Assembly: GCA_030491005.1 (NCBI GenBank)
Contig: JAKZMJ010000015.1
Coordinates: forward strand, 372,001-436,000
DNA length: 64,000 bases
Direction of reading: 5' to 3'
Source: Sulfurospirillum sp.
GTDB taxonomy: Bacteria > Campylobacterota > Campylobacteria > Campylobacterales > Arcobacteraceae
The notes beneath the pieces are model-generated. The model searched no databases. It was given only the letters and a program-made list of their open reading frames with translations, and was not told where the DNA came from. Each line of letters starts with the position of its first letter. The first letter of the stretch is position 1. The translations under genes and the position numbers were made by a program. Positions 13,694 to 20,837 of this stretch are shown in pieces.

Positions 13694-13741
13694 ATGCTAC
13701 TATTAGATAATATAATTAACAATATTTTTTTAGGACACCTT

Positions 13742-14839
13742 ATGAAATATCTAAATGATTTAGAAAAGATAATAAATATTAACTCTTATACAAAAAATAA
13801 ACAAGGAGTTGATAAAGTTGGCAGTATTATGTCAATATGGCTAGAAGAACTTAATTTTCAAACAAAAACTTTTGAATGCGAAGAAATAGGAAATCACTTA
13901 TTATATACAAGTAGCATAAAAAACAATCTACCAAGAATTTTACTTCTTGGTCATAATGATACAGTTTTCCCACCTAATACATTTGAAGAATTTACACAAG
14001 ATAAAGACTATATATATGGTCCTGGTGTTTGTGATATGAAAGGTGGCAATATCGTTGCCTTACAAGCATTAAGAAATGTGTATAAAAAACATAACAAGAT
14101 ATATAATATAGATTTTTTATTAGTTTCTGATGAAGAAACAGGCAGTGATAATTCTAAACATTTAAGCTTAAGCATTGCTAAAAATTATGATTATTGTTTT
14201 GTTTTTGAAGCAGCTGGCAAGAACCTTGAGCTTGTAGTTGGAAGAAAAGGTGTTGGTACTTTTACAATAAATATCAAAGGAGTAGCATCTCATGCTGGAA
14301 CTTCTTATGAAAAAGGAATTGATGCAAATATAGAAGCTTCTTATAAACTTCAAGAATTAGTTAAATTAACTAATTTAAAACTTGGCACGACAGTTAATGT
14401 AGGAAAAATAAAAGGAGGAATTGGTGCAAATACAATTTCACCTGAAGCTAGTATTCTTTTTGAAATAAGATATACCTCTAAAGATGAAAAAGATAGATTA
14501 TTAAACTGCATTAATACTATTACAAATACTTCATATGTCAAAGGTTCAACTTCGAGCTTAAGTGGTCTAATTCAAAGAGATGTTATGCAACACAATAAAA
14601 ATCAAGATATTTTAATAAAAACCATTGAAAATTTAAGCGATGAAAAAATTTTAACAGAACATAGAGGAGGAGTAAGTGATGCTAATATAATATCTAGCCA
14701 AGGAGTAACAACACTTGATGGATTTGGGCCTTTTGGAGATGGCGATCATACTGTAAAAGAAAGGGCATTAAAAAGTTCATTTGAACAAAGAATACAACTA
14801 ATGACAAAAATTCTTAATTTTTTCCAAGAAACTAATTAA
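13742..14839 (+). CDS. M20-family metallopeptidase, glutamate-carboxypeptidase (CPG2) type
   Basis: A 365-residue cytoplasmic zinc peptidase. I use the ATG at 13742 because TTAGGA lies just before it; an in-frame ATG 48 bases upstream has no ribosome site. Zinc-ligand and catalytic positions are visible: H71 and D73 in GHNDTVFP, D98 in GPGVCDMKGG, E131-E132 in VSDEETGS, E156, and the late His in GPFGDGDHTVKE. H184 in ASHAGTS belongs to the dimerisation domain. The pattern is closest to CPG2-like enzymes that remove C-terminal glutamate or split small amide conjugates. It heads an operon with two ATP-grasp ligases and an M14 carboxypeptidase, so a small peptide substrate is likely. Confidence 0.85.
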   Translation: MKYLNDLEKIININSYTKNKQGVDKVGSIMSIWLEELNFQTKTFECEEIGNHLLYTSSIKNNLPRILLLGHNDTVFPPNTFEEFTQDKDYIYGPGVCDMKGGNIVALQALRNVYKKHNKIYNIDFLLVSDEETGSDNSKHLSLSIAKNYDYCFVFEAAGKNLELVVGRKGVGTFTINIKGVASHAGTSYEKGIDANIEASYKLQELVKLTNLKLGTTVNVGKIKGGIGANTISPEASILFEIRYTSKDEKDRLLNCINTITNTSYVKGSTSSLSGLIQRDVMQHNKNQDILIKTIENLSDEKILTEHRGGVSDANIISSQGVTTLDGFGPFGDGDHTVKERALKSSFEQRIQLMTKILNFFQETN

Positions 14840-14853
14840 TAAAAGGGATTATC

Positions 14854-15759
14854 ATGAGGGATAAAACAATAGGTTTATGGTTATATAAAAATGGTGGTGG
14901 TGATAAAATACAACAAAGACTTGTTGATAAACTTAAAGAGAGAAATATTAATACAATTACTGATATAAACCTAAGAGGAGCTATTGCAAAAAATGAACAT
15001 ATTTTGTATAACGACATTAAACTTGATGAATTAGATCTATTTTTTTCATATAATGCAGGTGAGCAAACTCAATATCAAATGTATTTATATAAAGCATTAG
15101 ATCATGTAATACCTATGATTAATACATTTAAATCTCTTGAATTAACAGAAGATAAGTTTCATACATCTTTTCTTTTAAGACAACATGGAGTGCAAACTGC
15201 TGATTATAAACTTTGTCATAGAGATGATACACATCATTTAAAATCCATAATGGAACAATGGGATAAAATGGTGTATAAACCAACTGATGGTTGGGGTGGA
15301 GTAGGACTTACAAAAATTGAGAATCAAGAAACACTAGATATGTTAATGCCTTTTTTAAATCAAATAGATTTAAGATATTTTTATGTTGAAAAATTTATAA
15401 ACTATGATAATACAGATTATAGAATTGATATAGTTGATGGTAAATTCATAGCTTGTTATGGAAGAAAAGCAAATAAAAATAGCTGGAAAACAAATATAAC
15501 AAGTGGGGGAAGTGTCTTTTTACGAGAAGCAAATGACGAGCTGGTTAATTTAGCTATAAAAGCTGCAAAAATAACAGGCTTAGATATAGCTGGAATTGAT
15601 ATTTTATATGACAAGGTTAAAGAAGAATATATAGTATTAGAAGTAAATGGTATACCAGCATTTGCAACACCACAACAAGAAAAATTAGGCTTAGATTTTA
15701 ATGAAAAAAAGATAAATGCAATTGTTAATTTGATTGATAGAAAAGTAAATAAAAAATAA
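14854..15759 (+). CDS. ATP-grasp ligase, RimK/glutathione-synthetase type
   Basis: A 301-residue soluble protein with a pre-ATP-grasp N-terminal domain and an ATP-grasp fold. Visible elements are K142 with the glycine loop DGWGGVG (145-151), E179 for nucleotide binding (YVEKFI), R190, an active-site strand WKTNITSGGS (211-220), D249 and the metal-binding E263-V-N265 in VLEVNG. The full catalytic set suggests an active carboxylate-amine ligase forming an amide or peptide bond via acyl phosphate. The substrate is unknown. It starts 14 bases after the M20 gene with AAGGGA upstream, and is followed 9 bases later by a second ATP-grasp gene. RimK itself or a glutathione synthetase are poorer fits given the neighbours. 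Confidence 0.85.
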   Translation: MRDKTIGLWLYKNGGGDKIQQRLVDKLKERNINTITDINLRGAIAKNEHILYNDIKLDELDLFFSYNAGEQTQYQMYLYKALDHVIPMINTFKSLELTEDKFHTSFLLRQHGVQTADYKLCHRDDTHHLKSIMEQWDKMVYKPTDGWGGVGLTKIENQETLDMLMPFLNQIDLRYFYVEKFINYDNTDYRIDIVDGKFIACYGRKANKNSWKTNITSGGSVFLREANDELVNLAIKAAKITGLDIAGIDILYDKVKEEYIVLEVNGIPAFATPQQEKLGLDFNEKKINAIVNLIDRKVNKK

Positions 15760-15768
15760 GGAAAAAAA

Positions 15769-17280
15769 ATGAATAAAAATGAATTACCAAAGATAGCTTT
15801 CTTGTACTTAGATTATGTTCTAAGATTTTTTGACCATTCAAACTTTAAAGGATGGCCTAATAAAATACACTCTATTACTTATCATTGGAAAAATGATAAA
15901 AATAGATTTATTAAAGAAGTTAAGAATAAAAAAATTGATATCTTAATTGGAAATATTCCTGCAACTGCTTATGATACTTTTGTTCAAATTTCAAAAGAAT
16001 TACCAAATGTTAGATTTGTACCATCTTTAGAGACTCAATTTCCAAATAAATCAAAAGAAAATGTAACACTATTTTGTGAAAAATATAATCTTAGTATTCC
16101 TAAGACCAAAATATTTTATGATAAACAAAAAGCAGATAAATACTTTAAAAATGAAGCAAGTTATCCACAAATAATTAAAAAATCTTATGGACCTTCAAAT
16201 TATGGTGGTTATTTCGTACATAAAGTAAATAGTCCAAGTGAAGCAAAAAAATTAGTTGAAGAAAAAAAGTATAATCCAATATATACACAAGATGGAATTG
16301 ATTTAAAACATTCAGGTGATTTAAGAATTATGCTAATAGGACATAAACCAGTATGTGCTTTTTGGAGGTTTTCAGGTAAAGGAGAGTGGATTACAAATAC
16401 TTCTCAAGGTGGAAGCATGTCTTATGACAATGTTCCTATGGCATCTTTAGAATTAGCAGTACAAGCAAGTAAAGCAGCAAAAGCAGAATATTGGGCTTGT
16501 GATATTGCAATTGATGCTAAAACTAATAAAGCTTACATTTTAGAATGTGCAACAGCATTTGCCGCTTTTCCATATATTAGAGATTGGATTTGTCAATACT
16601 TAATGTGGGATTTTTCACAAGGAGCATTTCAAAAACCTCATGTTCCTTTATTTTCTTGGGAAGAGTTAGGAAAAATAAATCCAAACCTTTTAAGAACTAT
16701 GAGACATATAGGCTTTGGACAATATACACAATCTAGTGATGCAGAATACTATACAAATGAAAAATACAATGAATTCATAATGGAAAAAACACTAGAAAGT
16801 AAGCTTAGTGATGTTCCTAAAAATATCAATATTGAAGATTTAGATATTTATAAAGATTTATTAAAACCAAATACTCAAGAAAAAAGTTGTGATGTACAAA
16901 AGATAAATTTAAATTCTACTTCATTAACTACTCTTATGAGTTTACATGCCATGGAAGAGGATTTAGCATTAGAAATTTTTGAATATACAAAAGATAATAT
17001 TATTACAGATACTTCAGATTTGCTTGATTTAGAATCAATTAATGAAACCATGATTAATACTTGGGAAGATGATATAGAAGATATGAGATTTAATATAAAT
17101 GACATAAAACACGAATATTTAATAAAAATCAAAGGTATAGGTGCTAAACTTGCAAAAAATATTGTAGCTAAGAAGGAAGACTTGGGCAAGTTTACTTGTC
17201 TTGATGAATTAAAAGATATTGATGGTATTGGTAAAAATAAATTTTATGAATTAAAATCAAGATTTAAAATAGGAGAATAA
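15769..17280 (+). CDS. ATP-grasp protein fused to C-terminal helix-hairpin-helix repeats
   Basis: A 503-residue protein. Residues 1-285 are a second, divergent ATP-grasp module: IIKKSYGPSNYGGYFV (135-150), DLRIML (184-189), WRFSGKGEWITNTSQGGS (199-215), D245 and E259. The usual metal-binding E-x-N is E259-C-A261 here, so one ligand is missing. Residues 379-405 resemble a degenerate helix-hairpin-helix, and 450-500 a canonical tandem one (LIKIKGIGAKLAKNIVAKKE, then LKDIDGIGKNKFYELKSRF), as in ComEA. The joining region 290-370 is unassigned. HhH domains usually bind DNA backbone, which is unexpected on a ligase; a protein-interaction or peptide-carrier role is possible. It ends 3 bases before the M14 gene. 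Confidence 0.8.
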   Translation: MNKNELPKIAFLYLDYVLRFFDHSNFKGWPNKIHSITYHWKNDKNRFIKEVKNKKIDILIGNIPATAYDTFVQISKELPNVRFVPSLETQFPNKSKENVTLFCEKYNLSIPKTKIFYDKQKADKYFKNEASYPQIIKKSYGPSNYGGYFVHKVNSPSEAKKLVEEKKYNPIYTQDGIDLKHSGDLRIMLIGHKPVCAFWRFSGKGEWITNTSQGGSMSYDNVPMASLELAVQASKAAKAEYWACDIAIDAKTNKAYILECATAFAAFPYIRDWICQYLMWDFSQGAFQKPHVPLFSWEELGKINPNLLRTMRHIGFGQYTQSSDAEYYTNEKYNEFIMEKTLESKLSDVPKNINIEDLDIYKDLLKPNTQEKSCDVQKINLNSTSLTTLMSLHAMEEDLALEIFEYTKDNIITDTSDLLDLESINETMINTWEDDIEDMRFNINDIKHEYLIKIKGIGAKLAKNIVAKKEDLGKFTCLDELKDIDGIGKNKFYELKSRFKIGE

Positions 17281-17283
17281 TTT

Positions 17284-19863
17284 TTGAAACAACTTTATAG
17301 GTCATACGAACAGTCAACAAATATATTTAATGATTATGCAAAAAAATATAATAAACATTTTAAAATAGAATCAATAGGAAAAACTTGGGAAAAAAGAGAT
17401 ATTAATTTACTTACAATATCACAAGATATTAATACAGCACATACTAAACCTGCTTTATTTTTTACAGGTACTATTCATGCAAGAGAGTGGGTAGGTCACG
17501 AACTTGCACTTGAGTTTACAAAACATATTTTAGAAAATATTGAACATGATTTAAACTTACTATCTTATTTAAAAAATGCAACTATATATATAGTTCCTTG
17601 TGCTAATCCTGATGGTTATGAATACTCAAGAACACATTTTTCTTTTTGGAGAAAAAATAGACGACCTAATGCTGATGGAACTTTTGGAGTTGATTTAAAT
17701 AGAAATTTTCCAATTGGTTTTATTCATAGTACTCAAACAAACTCTAATATCTATGGAGGTCCCAATCCTTTTTCAGAACCTGAGAGTTTAGCTATTAAGC
17801 ACTTTATAGAGACACATAAAAATATTACATTAGCTCTTGATTATCACTCTCAAGGTAATGTTTTTTTTCCAGCTCATGATTTTAGATATGAAGATACTAT
17901 TGATACAACTGATATGAATATTTTATGTGCAAATATGGCTGAAGAGATTAGAAAAATATCAGGAAGAGAATATGGAATACATCAAGGAAAACCACCTGCT
18001 AAACTAATATCAGGAAGTGGAAGAGAGTTTTATTATTCTAAAGGAATACTCTCAGTAGTTGTAGAAGTGGGTACTAGAAATATAAGTGATTATTTAGATG
18101 ATATGAATGAACATTTAAGAGAACATATACAAGCTTTATTAATAACACTTAAAGAAGTACCAAATTATAGTAAAAGCTCTACTAAAAGAGTGTCTTCTTT
18201 TGAAGTTAGCGAAATAGGATCATCTCGTGTTGGTTTGAAATGGGATTATGAACAAAGTGATGATATATTTTTTGAAATTTATAGAAGCCATAAAGATAAA
18301 AGTTTTTGTCTTGAATCAAATTTTATAGTCAAAACAAAAAAGTTGGAATTTACAGATATTAACTTAGACTCTAATAAAGATTATTTTTATAATATTAGAG
18401 TTGTAAATAAAGTTTCAAATTTAAAATCACCATTTTATCCAGAAATAAAAGTAAGAACTAAATTAGAATTTGATGAATTTTCAAGAACTTATTATGCAAT
18501 TGCTTCAAAAACTGGTTATGTCTGTGAAAACCATAAAACAAATGCTAATCATTTTGCTGTGAATTCATTATTCGTAGGAGTTGATACTAACAAAGGTATT
18601 TCTTATGCTATTGTAAGTATAGATATAAAATCTTTACCACAAAATGCTCTTATTAAAACAGCTTCATTTAACTTATACCCAATTAATAGAGTTTCTACAA
18701 CTATTGAAAAATACGGAGAATGGAATGTAGGAATTGTAAATCAAGATACGATGGGTGATATTACAGATTTTGAAGATGTTCATAATATGGAAATATTAAC
18801 TTATATTGGAAGACCTACTCAATCTCACCAATTAACACAAGGTATATGGAGAACTTGGGAACTATCAGGTTTGGAAGCTGGAATATTAAATTCACAGATA
18901 AAAAATGAACAAATTATTTTAAGAATTGAGGGACCAAAAGAGTTAAAAGTTAATAGAAATAAACAAATGATGCAATGGGATATAGGTTATGGGAAGTTTG
19001 GCTTTGGATTAACTTATAGACCAAGGTTTGAATTAACATACCAATTAGAAGCAAATACAACAACACTATACCCTAAAGCTTTATGTACTTTAAGCAAAGA
19101 CAAAATAATAAAAGATCAATTAATTTCTGGTTTTGATAAGAATGCTTTTAAAATTTATTCTACTTTTGAATTTAATCTATCTTCTTTGCCAAATTATGAT
19201 TATACTATGATTACAAAAGCATATTTTGAATTAAATTCAACAAAAATATATTTAAAAGATGATATAAGATTTCATTTAGAATTTGTTGATGAAAATATAA
19301 ATAATAATTATGATGAAATTCATAACCGAGATATTATTCAAAACATTGGCTATGATGTTAGTGCAAATGAACTAAAAAATAACCAAACTCAATATTTTGT
19401 TTTTGATGCTTTCGCCCAAAAACAACTAAATGAAAAATTAAAAAATAAATCAGATATTACTTTTATTTTAAATCCAACTTCTTCAAAAAAACTCTTAAAA
19501 GATAAAACAATTTCATGGGAAATAAGTAATTCCGATTTAGCTCCAAAATTAATAATTGAACATATACCAAAAAGACGCTTTGGTGTAGAACAAATAACAA
19601 ATTTAAAACTTACAAATGAGAACTCTAAAATAAAACTTTTATGGAAAAACCCAAATAATAAAGACTTCAAAGGTGTAAAAGTCATAAGTAATCCTCATAG
19701 AATTCCATTTTCACATATGGATGGAAATAAGCTTTATGCTGGTACTGATGAGTTTACTTACGATGAATTTGGGGCAAGTGATATAAATAAATATTATGCT
19801 GTATTTACTTATGATGATGTTCCAAATTATTCAAAAGCACAAATCCTAGAATATAAAGCTTAG
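17284..19863 (+). CDS. M14 zinc carboxypeptidase with FnIII and beta-sandwich extensions
   Basis: An 859-residue protein. Translation probably starts at TTG 17284 with AGGAG 8 bases before it. Residues 1-290 are an M14 carboxypeptidase: zinc ligands H65 and E68 (HARE) and H188 (DYHSQG), carboxylate-binding N139-R140 (VDLNRNFP), and catalytic E261 (VVVEVGT). Residues about 300-395 and 775-859 look like FnIII domains. Between them are two beta-sandwich modules of about 190 residues resembling DNRLRE/CBM-like domains. There is no signal peptide, which is odd for such a surface-style architecture, so the enzyme is predicted to be cytoplasmic or exported by an unusual route. It closes the M20/ATP-grasp operon. 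Confidence 0.85.
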   Translation: MKQLYRSYEQSTNIFNDYAKKYNKHFKIESIGKTWEKRDINLLTISQDINTAHTKPALFFTGTIHAREWVGHELALEFTKHILENIEHDLNLLSYLKNATIYIVPCANPDGYEYSRTHFSFWRKNRRPNADGTFGVDLNRNFPIGFIHSTQTNSNIYGGPNPFSEPESLAIKHFIETHKNITLALDYHSQGNVFFPAHDFRYEDTIDTTDMNILCANMAEEIRKISGREYGIHQGKPPAKLISGSGREFYYSKGILSVVVEVGTRNISDYLDDMNEHLREHIQALLITLKEVPNYSKSSTKRVSSFEVSEIGSSRVGLKWDYEQSDDIFFEIYRSHKDKSFCLESNFIVKTKKLEFTDINLDSNKDYFYNIRVVNKVSNLKSPFYPEIKVRTKLEFDEFSRTYYAIASKTGYVCENHKTNANHFAVNSLFVGVDTNKGISYAIVSIDIKSLPQNALIKTASFNLYPINRVSTTIEKYGEWNVGIVNQDTMGDITDFEDVHNMEILTYIGRPTQSHQLTQGIWRTWELSGLEAGILNSQIKNEQIILRIEGPKELKVNRNKQMMQWDIGYGKFGFGLTYRPRFELTYQLEANTTTLYPKALCTLSKDKIIKDQLISGFDKNAFKIYSTFEFNLSSLPNYDYTMITKAYFELNSTKIYLKDDIRFHLEFVDENINNNYDEIHNRDIIQNIGYDVSANELKNNQTQYFVFDAFAQKQLNEKLKNKSDITFILNPTSSKKLLKDKTISWEISNSDLAPKLIIEHIPKRRFGVEQITNLKLTNENSKIKLLWKNPNNKDFKGVKVISNPHRIPFSHMDGNKLYAGTDEFTYDEFGASDINKYYAVFTYDDVPNYSKAQILEYKA

Positions 19864-19883
19864 ATGATTAATCATCTAAGCTT
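19856..19883. terminator. Perfect 28-base palindrome at the end of the M14 gene
   Basis: A perfect palindrome (12-bp stem, 4-base loop) with HindIII-like AAGCTT at both ends spans the M14 stop codon. It lies between the convergent M14 and dUTPase genes. U tracts are weak on both sides, so it is a likely but imperfect bidirectional terminator. Confidence 0.55.
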
Positions 19884-19910: not shown

Positions 19911-20837
19911 TTATACTCTCTTTAACTTAGAGTAAACCTCTGATAATTCTAAGTAAAGTTCATCTAAACTTATATTATCACTTTGTTTTAAAAGCTCTAC
20001 CATCACGATATTGTCTTCTTTATTATTCCAAACTTTTATATATGTACCTTCTTTATAACCATGTTCTTGTCTAAATTTATTTAAACAATTTTTACCTATA
20101 TAAAGTTTTTGTAACCAAGAAAATGATAAACCAGAAACTTTACAAGATTTAAAAAATTGATCAATAAATCTTTCTACACCAGAAAAAGATGGCATATTTC
20201 CTGTTTGTATTGCTAAGGCTATATAAGATAATTTTTCAGCTTCTTCTGTCATAAGTTTAATATTTATATTACTAGATGGCTCATAAATACAATGAGTATT
20301 TACTAAAGATACAGCTTTTGGTATATTTGTTTCTTGTAAAATATAAGACATTAAAAAATGCCAAACATCTACTAGTTCAATATGAATATTGTTAAAATCA
20401 GCATCTGCATTAATATTTTTCCAATGTTTCCAAGGTGTTGATTCTATTAATTCAGAAACTTCCATATGAATACATCTAAGCCAGTTAATTTCTTTTCCAA
20501 ACTTATTAATTCCTAGTTCCCAATTTTTACCATTGGTTGAGTCATTTAATTTCTTTTGCAATAAAAACATTTCTTCTAATTTAGAAGGAAAGGATGAAGA
20601 TTCATCTAATAAAGTAGCCAAGGGCAAACATTCATCAACTAAAGAATCTAACCTCATATCTATTTTATGACTATTAGCCTCTAAACTTTGAATTAGTAAA
20701 CTTACAATTTGAGGAGATTTATCATCTTTTTTCCACAATTGAATATCTTTTGCTTCAAATCCAATATACTTTATAAATTCTTCTACTGAACTAAAACCTA
20801 ATACTTTAATACTATTTTCTAAATCTTTATACGACAA
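19911..20837 (-). CDS. Dimeric dUTPase (all-alpha NTP pyrophosphatase) with an extra N-terminal HTH-like domain
   Basis: A 308-residue protein. Residues about 86-308 match Campylobacter-type dimeric dUTPase: LLQKKLNDSTNGKNWELGI, then E126-V-S-E129 and the WKHWKN core, then E154-L-V-D157 followed by VWHFLMS. The ExxE and ExxD pairs are the magnesium ligands of the MazG-like fold. It converts dUTP to dUMP, limiting uracil in DNA and feeding thymidylate synthesis. The first 85 residues are additional: SSVEEFIKYIGFEAKDIQLW, then KKDDKSPQIVSLLIQSLE resembles an XRE-type helix-turn-helix. The gene is alone, convergent with the M14 operon and divergent from an ABC ATPase. The ATG at 20837 appears to be the only good start. 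Confidence 0.87.
   Translation of the reverse strand: MSYKDLENSIKVLGFSSVEEFIKYIGFEAKDIQLWKKDDKSPQIVSLLIQSLEANSHKIDMRLDSLVDECLPLATLLDESSSFPSKLEEMFLLQKKLNDSTNGKNWELGINKFGKEINWLRCIHMEVSELIESTPWKHWKNINADADFNNIHIELVDVWHFLMSYILQETNIPKAVSLVNTHCIYEPSSNINIKLMTEEAEKLSYIALAIQTGNMPSFSGVERFIDQFFKSCKVSGLSFSWLQKLYIGKNCLNKFRQEHGYKEGTYIKVWNNKEDNIVMVELLKQSDNISLDELYLELSEVYSKLKRV

Follow-up and report, generated by a model that had tools for sequence, protein, structure and literature searches.

What task do two ATP-grasp ligases and two metallopeptidases share when their genes lie end to end in a bacterial chromosome? The question arises from a 64,000-nucleotide stretch of Sulfurospirillum sp. DNA (contig JAKZMJ010000015.1, positions 372,001 to 436,000; hereafter the window), in which genes for an M20 peptidase, two RimK-like ATP-grasp proteins (AG1 and AG2) and an M14 carboxypeptidase run rightward as a quartet, M20–AG1–AG2–M14. 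The host assembly is a 2.69-Mb Campylobacterales genome, and its AG2 is 96% identical to that of the closest named relative, the Arcobacter metagenome-assembled genome (MAG) BB30. Our answer is tentative, if quite possible: the quartet would operate in the cytosol as a reversible cycle, in which acidic amino acids (Glu or Asp) are bound in peptide or amide linkage and released again. AG1 and AG2 would add the residues to an acceptor at the expense of ATP, as RimK, MptN and ArgX do; the M14 enzyme, with an Arg in its specificity pocket, would remove acidic residues at the C-terminus; and the M20 enzyme, which resembles carboxypeptidase G2 (CPG2), would hydrolyse the last dipeptide- or conjugate-type bond. 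We infer the acidic nature of the residue, the location, the direction of each step and the reversibility from the protein sequences. The following features, assigned by open reading frame (ORF) calls and, for the four genes, Pfam, are concerned.

13742–14839, + strand: M20 peptidase gene
14854–15759, + strand: AG1 gene (RimK-like ATP-grasp)
15769–17280, + strand: AG2 gene (RimK-like ATP-grasp, residues ~1–330, with a C-terminal helix-hairpin-helix (HhH) tail)
17284–19863, + strand: M14 carboxypeptidase gene, TTG start
19856–19883, no strand assigned: perfect 28-base palindrome that overlaps with the stop codon of M14 (listed as a terminator on the - strand)

The genes are separated by 14, 9 and 3 bases. 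Inspection by eye showed a purine-rich ribosome site before each of them: AGGA for M20, AGGG for AG1, AAGGA for AG2 and AGGAG for M14. The longest M20 ORF begins at 13694, and relatives favor the ATG at 13742. An earlier, sequence-only reading of the locus had described the four rightward genes, and its boundaries, gaps, ribosome sites and family assignments were correct to the base.

Co-inheritance of the quartet

When 84,980 species genomes were scanned by pattern, relatives of AG2 proved to be encoded in 316 stretches, of which the best 80 were taken further; in addition, a sample of 299 Campylobacterales genomes was searched for all four genes. The order M20–AG1–AG2–M14 was complete in 43 of the 52 loci with enough flanking sequence; two more loci (L085 and L106) also had the full order on re-inspection, antisense ORFs having masked their genes in the count. 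In the Campylobacterales sample, AG2 was found in 85 genomes, M14 in 88, AG1 in 85 and M20 in 87. Rare co-occurrence, which the sequence-only reading had named as grounds for doubting a common pathway, was not what we observed: all four genes were present in 80 of the 92 genomes with any of them. Every AG2 genome (85/85) also encoded M14, with the two genes adjacent in 73, and the association gave a Fisher p of ~5e-72 when shared ancestry was ignored.

Seven of the twelve incomplete sets came from assemblies that were at most 87% complete (G001, G121, G164, G175, G186, G195 and G205); the remaining ones were those of G009, G037, G131, G143 and G176. In addition, AG2 of G016 and G126 was located between efp and dnaE, 0.75–0.84 Mb away from an M20–AG1–M14 trio, and the trio likewise lay elsewhere in the genomes of L092 and L110, so that the split set was still complete. 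Since the set was retained even after its separation on the chromosome, a shared function of the four genes is likely, and because the Fisher p is uncorrected for ancestry, this pattern of exceptions is the stronger argument. An assembly of neighbors with unrelated functions, brought together by chance or kept by lineage, would be compatible with the short gene spacing of a compact genome and with the ability of vertical inheritance to preserve gene order. It is nevertheless extremely unlikely, given the all-or-none presence across genera and families, the completeness of the split sets and the occurrence of the set in two gammaproteobacterial genera. The four genes probably constitute one functional module.

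The whole set was present in Thiomicrorhabdus heinhorstiae and on a Photobacterium replicon, in which the M20 gene was divergent, and AG2 was missing from the other 273 of the 274 Gammaproteobacteria sampled as the class of Thiomicrorhabdus. This distribution suggests that the quartet has been transferred between lineages as a unit.

Several variant arrangements were also seen. AG1 was duplicated in three loci: one (L035) read AG1–M20–AG1–AG2–M14, another (L036) had one more AG1 downstream of M14 and, beyond that copy, a fragment resembling AG2, and the third (L065) carried two AG1 subtypes in tandem. When the subtypes were considered as donor-specificity classes, only nine positions differed, with no clear active-site pattern, and the idea was dropped. 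A second AG2 paralogue (L069, in the assembly of L072), which has both a Lys-rich linker and an HhH tail, was located away from the full set, and a record labeled Desulfuromonadales (L049) contained a Sulfurimonas-like set, reflecting either mis-binning or transfer.

Catalytic sites and predicted substrates

The M14 protein scored 193 bits against PF00246 (cut-off 21.6). Its zinc ligands His65, Glu68 and His188, the residues R123, N139 and R140, and the catalytic Glu261 were invariant in 57 sequences, as were Lys236 and His198. Residue 255 in carboxypeptidase A (CPA) numbering sets the specificity of M14 enzymes, and Arg255 leads to a preference for acidic C-terminal residues (PMC9925722). HMMER alignments placed Arg247 of the window protein at this position, opposite the Arg of carboxypeptidase O (CPO) and the Ile of carboxypeptidase A4, and the position was occupied by Arg in 56 of the 57 sequences and by Lys in the other. 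The enzyme is thus predicted to be acid-specific in the manner of CPO. Its model (predicted local distance difference test score (pLDDT) 84) matched the folds of carboxypeptidase T (CPT), CPO and CPA. The zinc-site residues, the specificity Arg and the fold are shared with CPO, an acid-specific M14A enzyme; in contrast, human CPO is membrane-anchored in the secretory path, whereas the quartet enzyme is apparently cytosolic, has ~560 additional residues in fn3-like and jelly-roll-like beta-sandwich domains after the catalytic domain and lacks an equivalent of CPA Tyr248.

The M20 protein matched PF01546 (72 bits) and PF07687 (M20_dimer, 61 bits), both above gathering scores, and its best relative in the PDB was CPG2 (E 5.5e-26). 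Among 66 sequences, the metal-site motifs GHxDTV, YGPGxCDMKGG, SDEE and GDHT were largely or fully invariant, and the Arg aligned with that of the CPG2 motif EERTGG was invariant. Despite this likeness, the score against the glutamate carboxypeptidase model PRK06133 (187.9 bits) was below the curated cut-off of 349.

Both ligases matched PF08443 (AG1 71.2 and AG2 51.4 bits; gathering cut-off 21), and a RimK-domain search of the genome returned only these two proteins above the cut-off. The canonical E-x-N metal motif was present in 69 of 69 AG1 sequences. The best NCBIfam model for AG1 was MptN, a tetrahydromethanopterin:alpha-L-glutamate ligase (152.5 bits, well under its cut-off of 350), followed by the RimK family. 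AG2 was extremely conserved over ~330 residues, with the signature ECATAFAAFPYxRDW; the folds nearest to its AlphaFold model (pLDDT 75, predicted template-modeling score 0.55) were ArgX, LysX and RimK. The HhH region that the sequence-only reading had noted in AG2 is indeed present here as a tandem (HHH_3, 67 bits), but it is not a constant part of the protein: the tail after residue ~330 depended on the lineage, with just one helical hairpin, or a degenerate one, in other loci and no tail in L101. RimK, ArgX, LysX and MptN attach Glu or aminoadipate to their acceptors. Since the M14 pocket, the nearest relative of M20 and the substrates of the ligase families agree, the residue handled by the quartet would be acidic. 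The sequence-only proposal that the cluster makes and trims a peptide or amide is consistent with the enzyme families and can be narrowed to acidic residues, whereas none of the product classes it offered (osmolyte, storage peptide, metallophore or modified protein C-terminus) was established.

Each of the enzymes belongs to a known superfamily and scores below the curated cut-offs of the characterized subfamilies. RimK itself has the same ATP-grasp fold and motifs, ligates Glu to carboxyl termini and, in RimABK, has a protease partner, but AG1 (131.2 bits) and AG2 (69 bits) were under the cut-off of the RimK alpha-L-glutamate ligase model TIGR00768 (143.4), and their partners are M20 and M14 metallopeptidases. 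The N-acetylglutaminylglutamine amide (NAGGN) operon and cyanophycin clusters also combine ligases with peptidases; however, the scores were 29.6 against TIGR03103 (cut-off 569) for the former and, for AG1, 50.3 against cyanophycin synthetase (CphA, cut-off 850) for the latter. As the sequence-only reading had held, the cluster is unlike graspetide, glutathione, cyanophycin and NAGGN clusters, all scores against these known families being far below curated cut-offs. Anti-phage defense was likewise rejected, as no PADLOC family was matched by any of the four proteins. Title, abstract and term searches found no description of the quartet in a literature collection that omits most subscription journals, and outside which an earlier mention may exist. 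Because the superfamilies are known, the cut-offs of characterized subfamilies were not reached and no description was found, we regard the quartet as a new variant of ligase–peptidase amide cluster.

Candidate acceptors

Two LysX/ArgX-like ligases together with an M20 hydrolase fit the logic of the ArgX/LysX–LysW–LysK pathways, in which an amino acid or secondary metabolite would be built on a LysW-like amino-group carrier and released by a LysK-like enzyme. This alternative is very unlikely. The host genome contained no match in a search for LysW that was positive in control genomes (Thermus and archaea), and the M20 protein scored 43.5 against the LysW-lysine hydrolase model (cut-off 363). 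In addition, the set has no kinase, reductase, aminotransferase or other downstream biosynthetic enzyme, and its M14 member would have no role there. A genetically encoded peptide was not indicated either: no conserved small precursor ORF was found beside the set in 134 flanking regions, which argues against a graspetide or another ribosomally synthesized and post-translationally modified peptide. The recurring small ORFs in these flanks were parts or shadows of trmD, rplS, argG and a dUTPase-type gene.

In the window, a dUTPase_2-domain gene (19911–20837) is convergent with the M14 gene, and the palindrome at 19856–19883, common to both, is probably a terminator between them. An RNA family search of the window returned nothing at the gathering threshold.

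A cytosolic protein could also be the acceptor, in a reversible glutamylation like that of tubulin (TTLL ligases and M14 CCP deglutamylases) or of ribosomal protein S6 by RimK. In support of this idea, RimK, ArgX and LysX, the folds nearest to AG2, act on a protein C-terminal Glu; the basic pocket and apparent cytosolic location of the M14 enzyme resemble the CCPs in logic; and the variable accessory HhH tail of AG2 could bind a target. However, S6 ended in KKAKK in the host and mostly in KKAN in the other genomes with the set, as in several genomes without it, so S6 was rejected as the target, having neither an acidic tail nor a difference between the two groups. Moreover, no target gene was consistently linked: the upstream neighbors were argG, rplS–trmD or efp, depending on the lineage. 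AG2 followed efp directly, mostly in the efp–dnaE interval, in L126 and L129 (these two in G016 and G126), L092, L100, L105 and L110; in L108, efp precedes M20–AG1–AG2. EF-P was considered as a target and set aside, since argG or rplS–trmD occupies this place in other lineages. Finally, the fourth enzyme is of the M20 family, which by precedent prefers small substrates. We therefore consider modification of a cytosolic protein unlikely. A dedicated bacterial glutamylation–deglutamylation cycle on proteins or peptides, in which a pair of RimK-like ligases, together with a cytosolic M14 specific for acidic residues, would be the counterpart of tubulin glutamylation, is quite unlikely; the ATP-grasp ligase and acidic-residue-removing M14 are common to both systems, but TTLL and CCP are eukaryotic families and the likeness is one of logic only.

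A further alternative is a compatible-solute or storage-peptide pathway, in which a small acidic peptide, made by AG1 and AG2 and recycled by M14 and M20, would accumulate in saline habitats. An analogous pairing is known from NAGGN synthesis, which an M42-type peptidase accompanies, and the missing amino-group carrier and precursor genes are as such a pathway would predict. The named cultured organisms with the quartet (Malaciobacter halophilus, Poseidonibacter lekithochrous, P. ostreae, Thiomicrorhabdus heinhorstiae and Photobacterium) are presumably marine or saline, in a comparison that covers named organisms with the set only. Another, Sulfurospirillum arcachonense, came from coastal sediment (PMC13209400). 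On the other hand, the records of some MAGs with the set do not point to a marine source, and ectoine synthase was equally rare with the set (8/85) and without it (16/214); lacking any association with the quartet, it was discarded as a marker of habitat or substitution. This pathway is accordingly rather unlikely in its specific form. Since two ligases and two exopeptidases travel together without a carrier or target gene, we consider a pool of small oligopeptides or solutes slightly more likely than a protein as the acceptor of the acidic-residue cycle.

Location of the proposed cycle and evidence against it

Inspection by eye revealed no signal peptide in any of the four proteins of the window, as the sequence-only reading had stated, nor in the M14 N-termini of the window and 18 relatives (19 in total) or in the Photobacterium M14. 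Because no inspected M14 N-terminus resembled a signal peptide, M14, and with it the cycle, is probably cytosolic.

Several observations weigh against the acidic-residue cycle. The location was judged by eye, and tails of the fn3 and jelly-roll type, such as that of M14, are commoner in exported proteins. CPA Tyr248 is not kept in M14, where the corresponding position 240 is mostly Lys, His or Arg, and the modeled active-site loops are of low confidence, so that the predicted specificity depends on the alignment. In AG2, the metal site retains D and E, but E-C-A replaces E-x-N in 79 of 79 sequences, with Ala for Asn; lacking the canonical Asn, AG2 may catalyze other chemistry or have a non-catalytic role. 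Furthermore, in G176 (L124, contig G176:C7) an intact M14 gene, 62% identical in product, follows argG while M20, AG1 and AG2 are gone, indicating that M14 can serve alone. This locus represents a natural loss of three genes.

An all-or-none set that occurs in over a quarter of the Campylobacterales sample, with many of the genomes coming from vents and sediments, must be useful to its hosts. The predicted chemistry, acidic residues on and acidic residues off, is specific enough to test. If the acidic-residue cycle is correct, the quartet would provide either a new pool of peptides inside the cells of marine chemolithotrophs or a glutamylation switch in bacteria.

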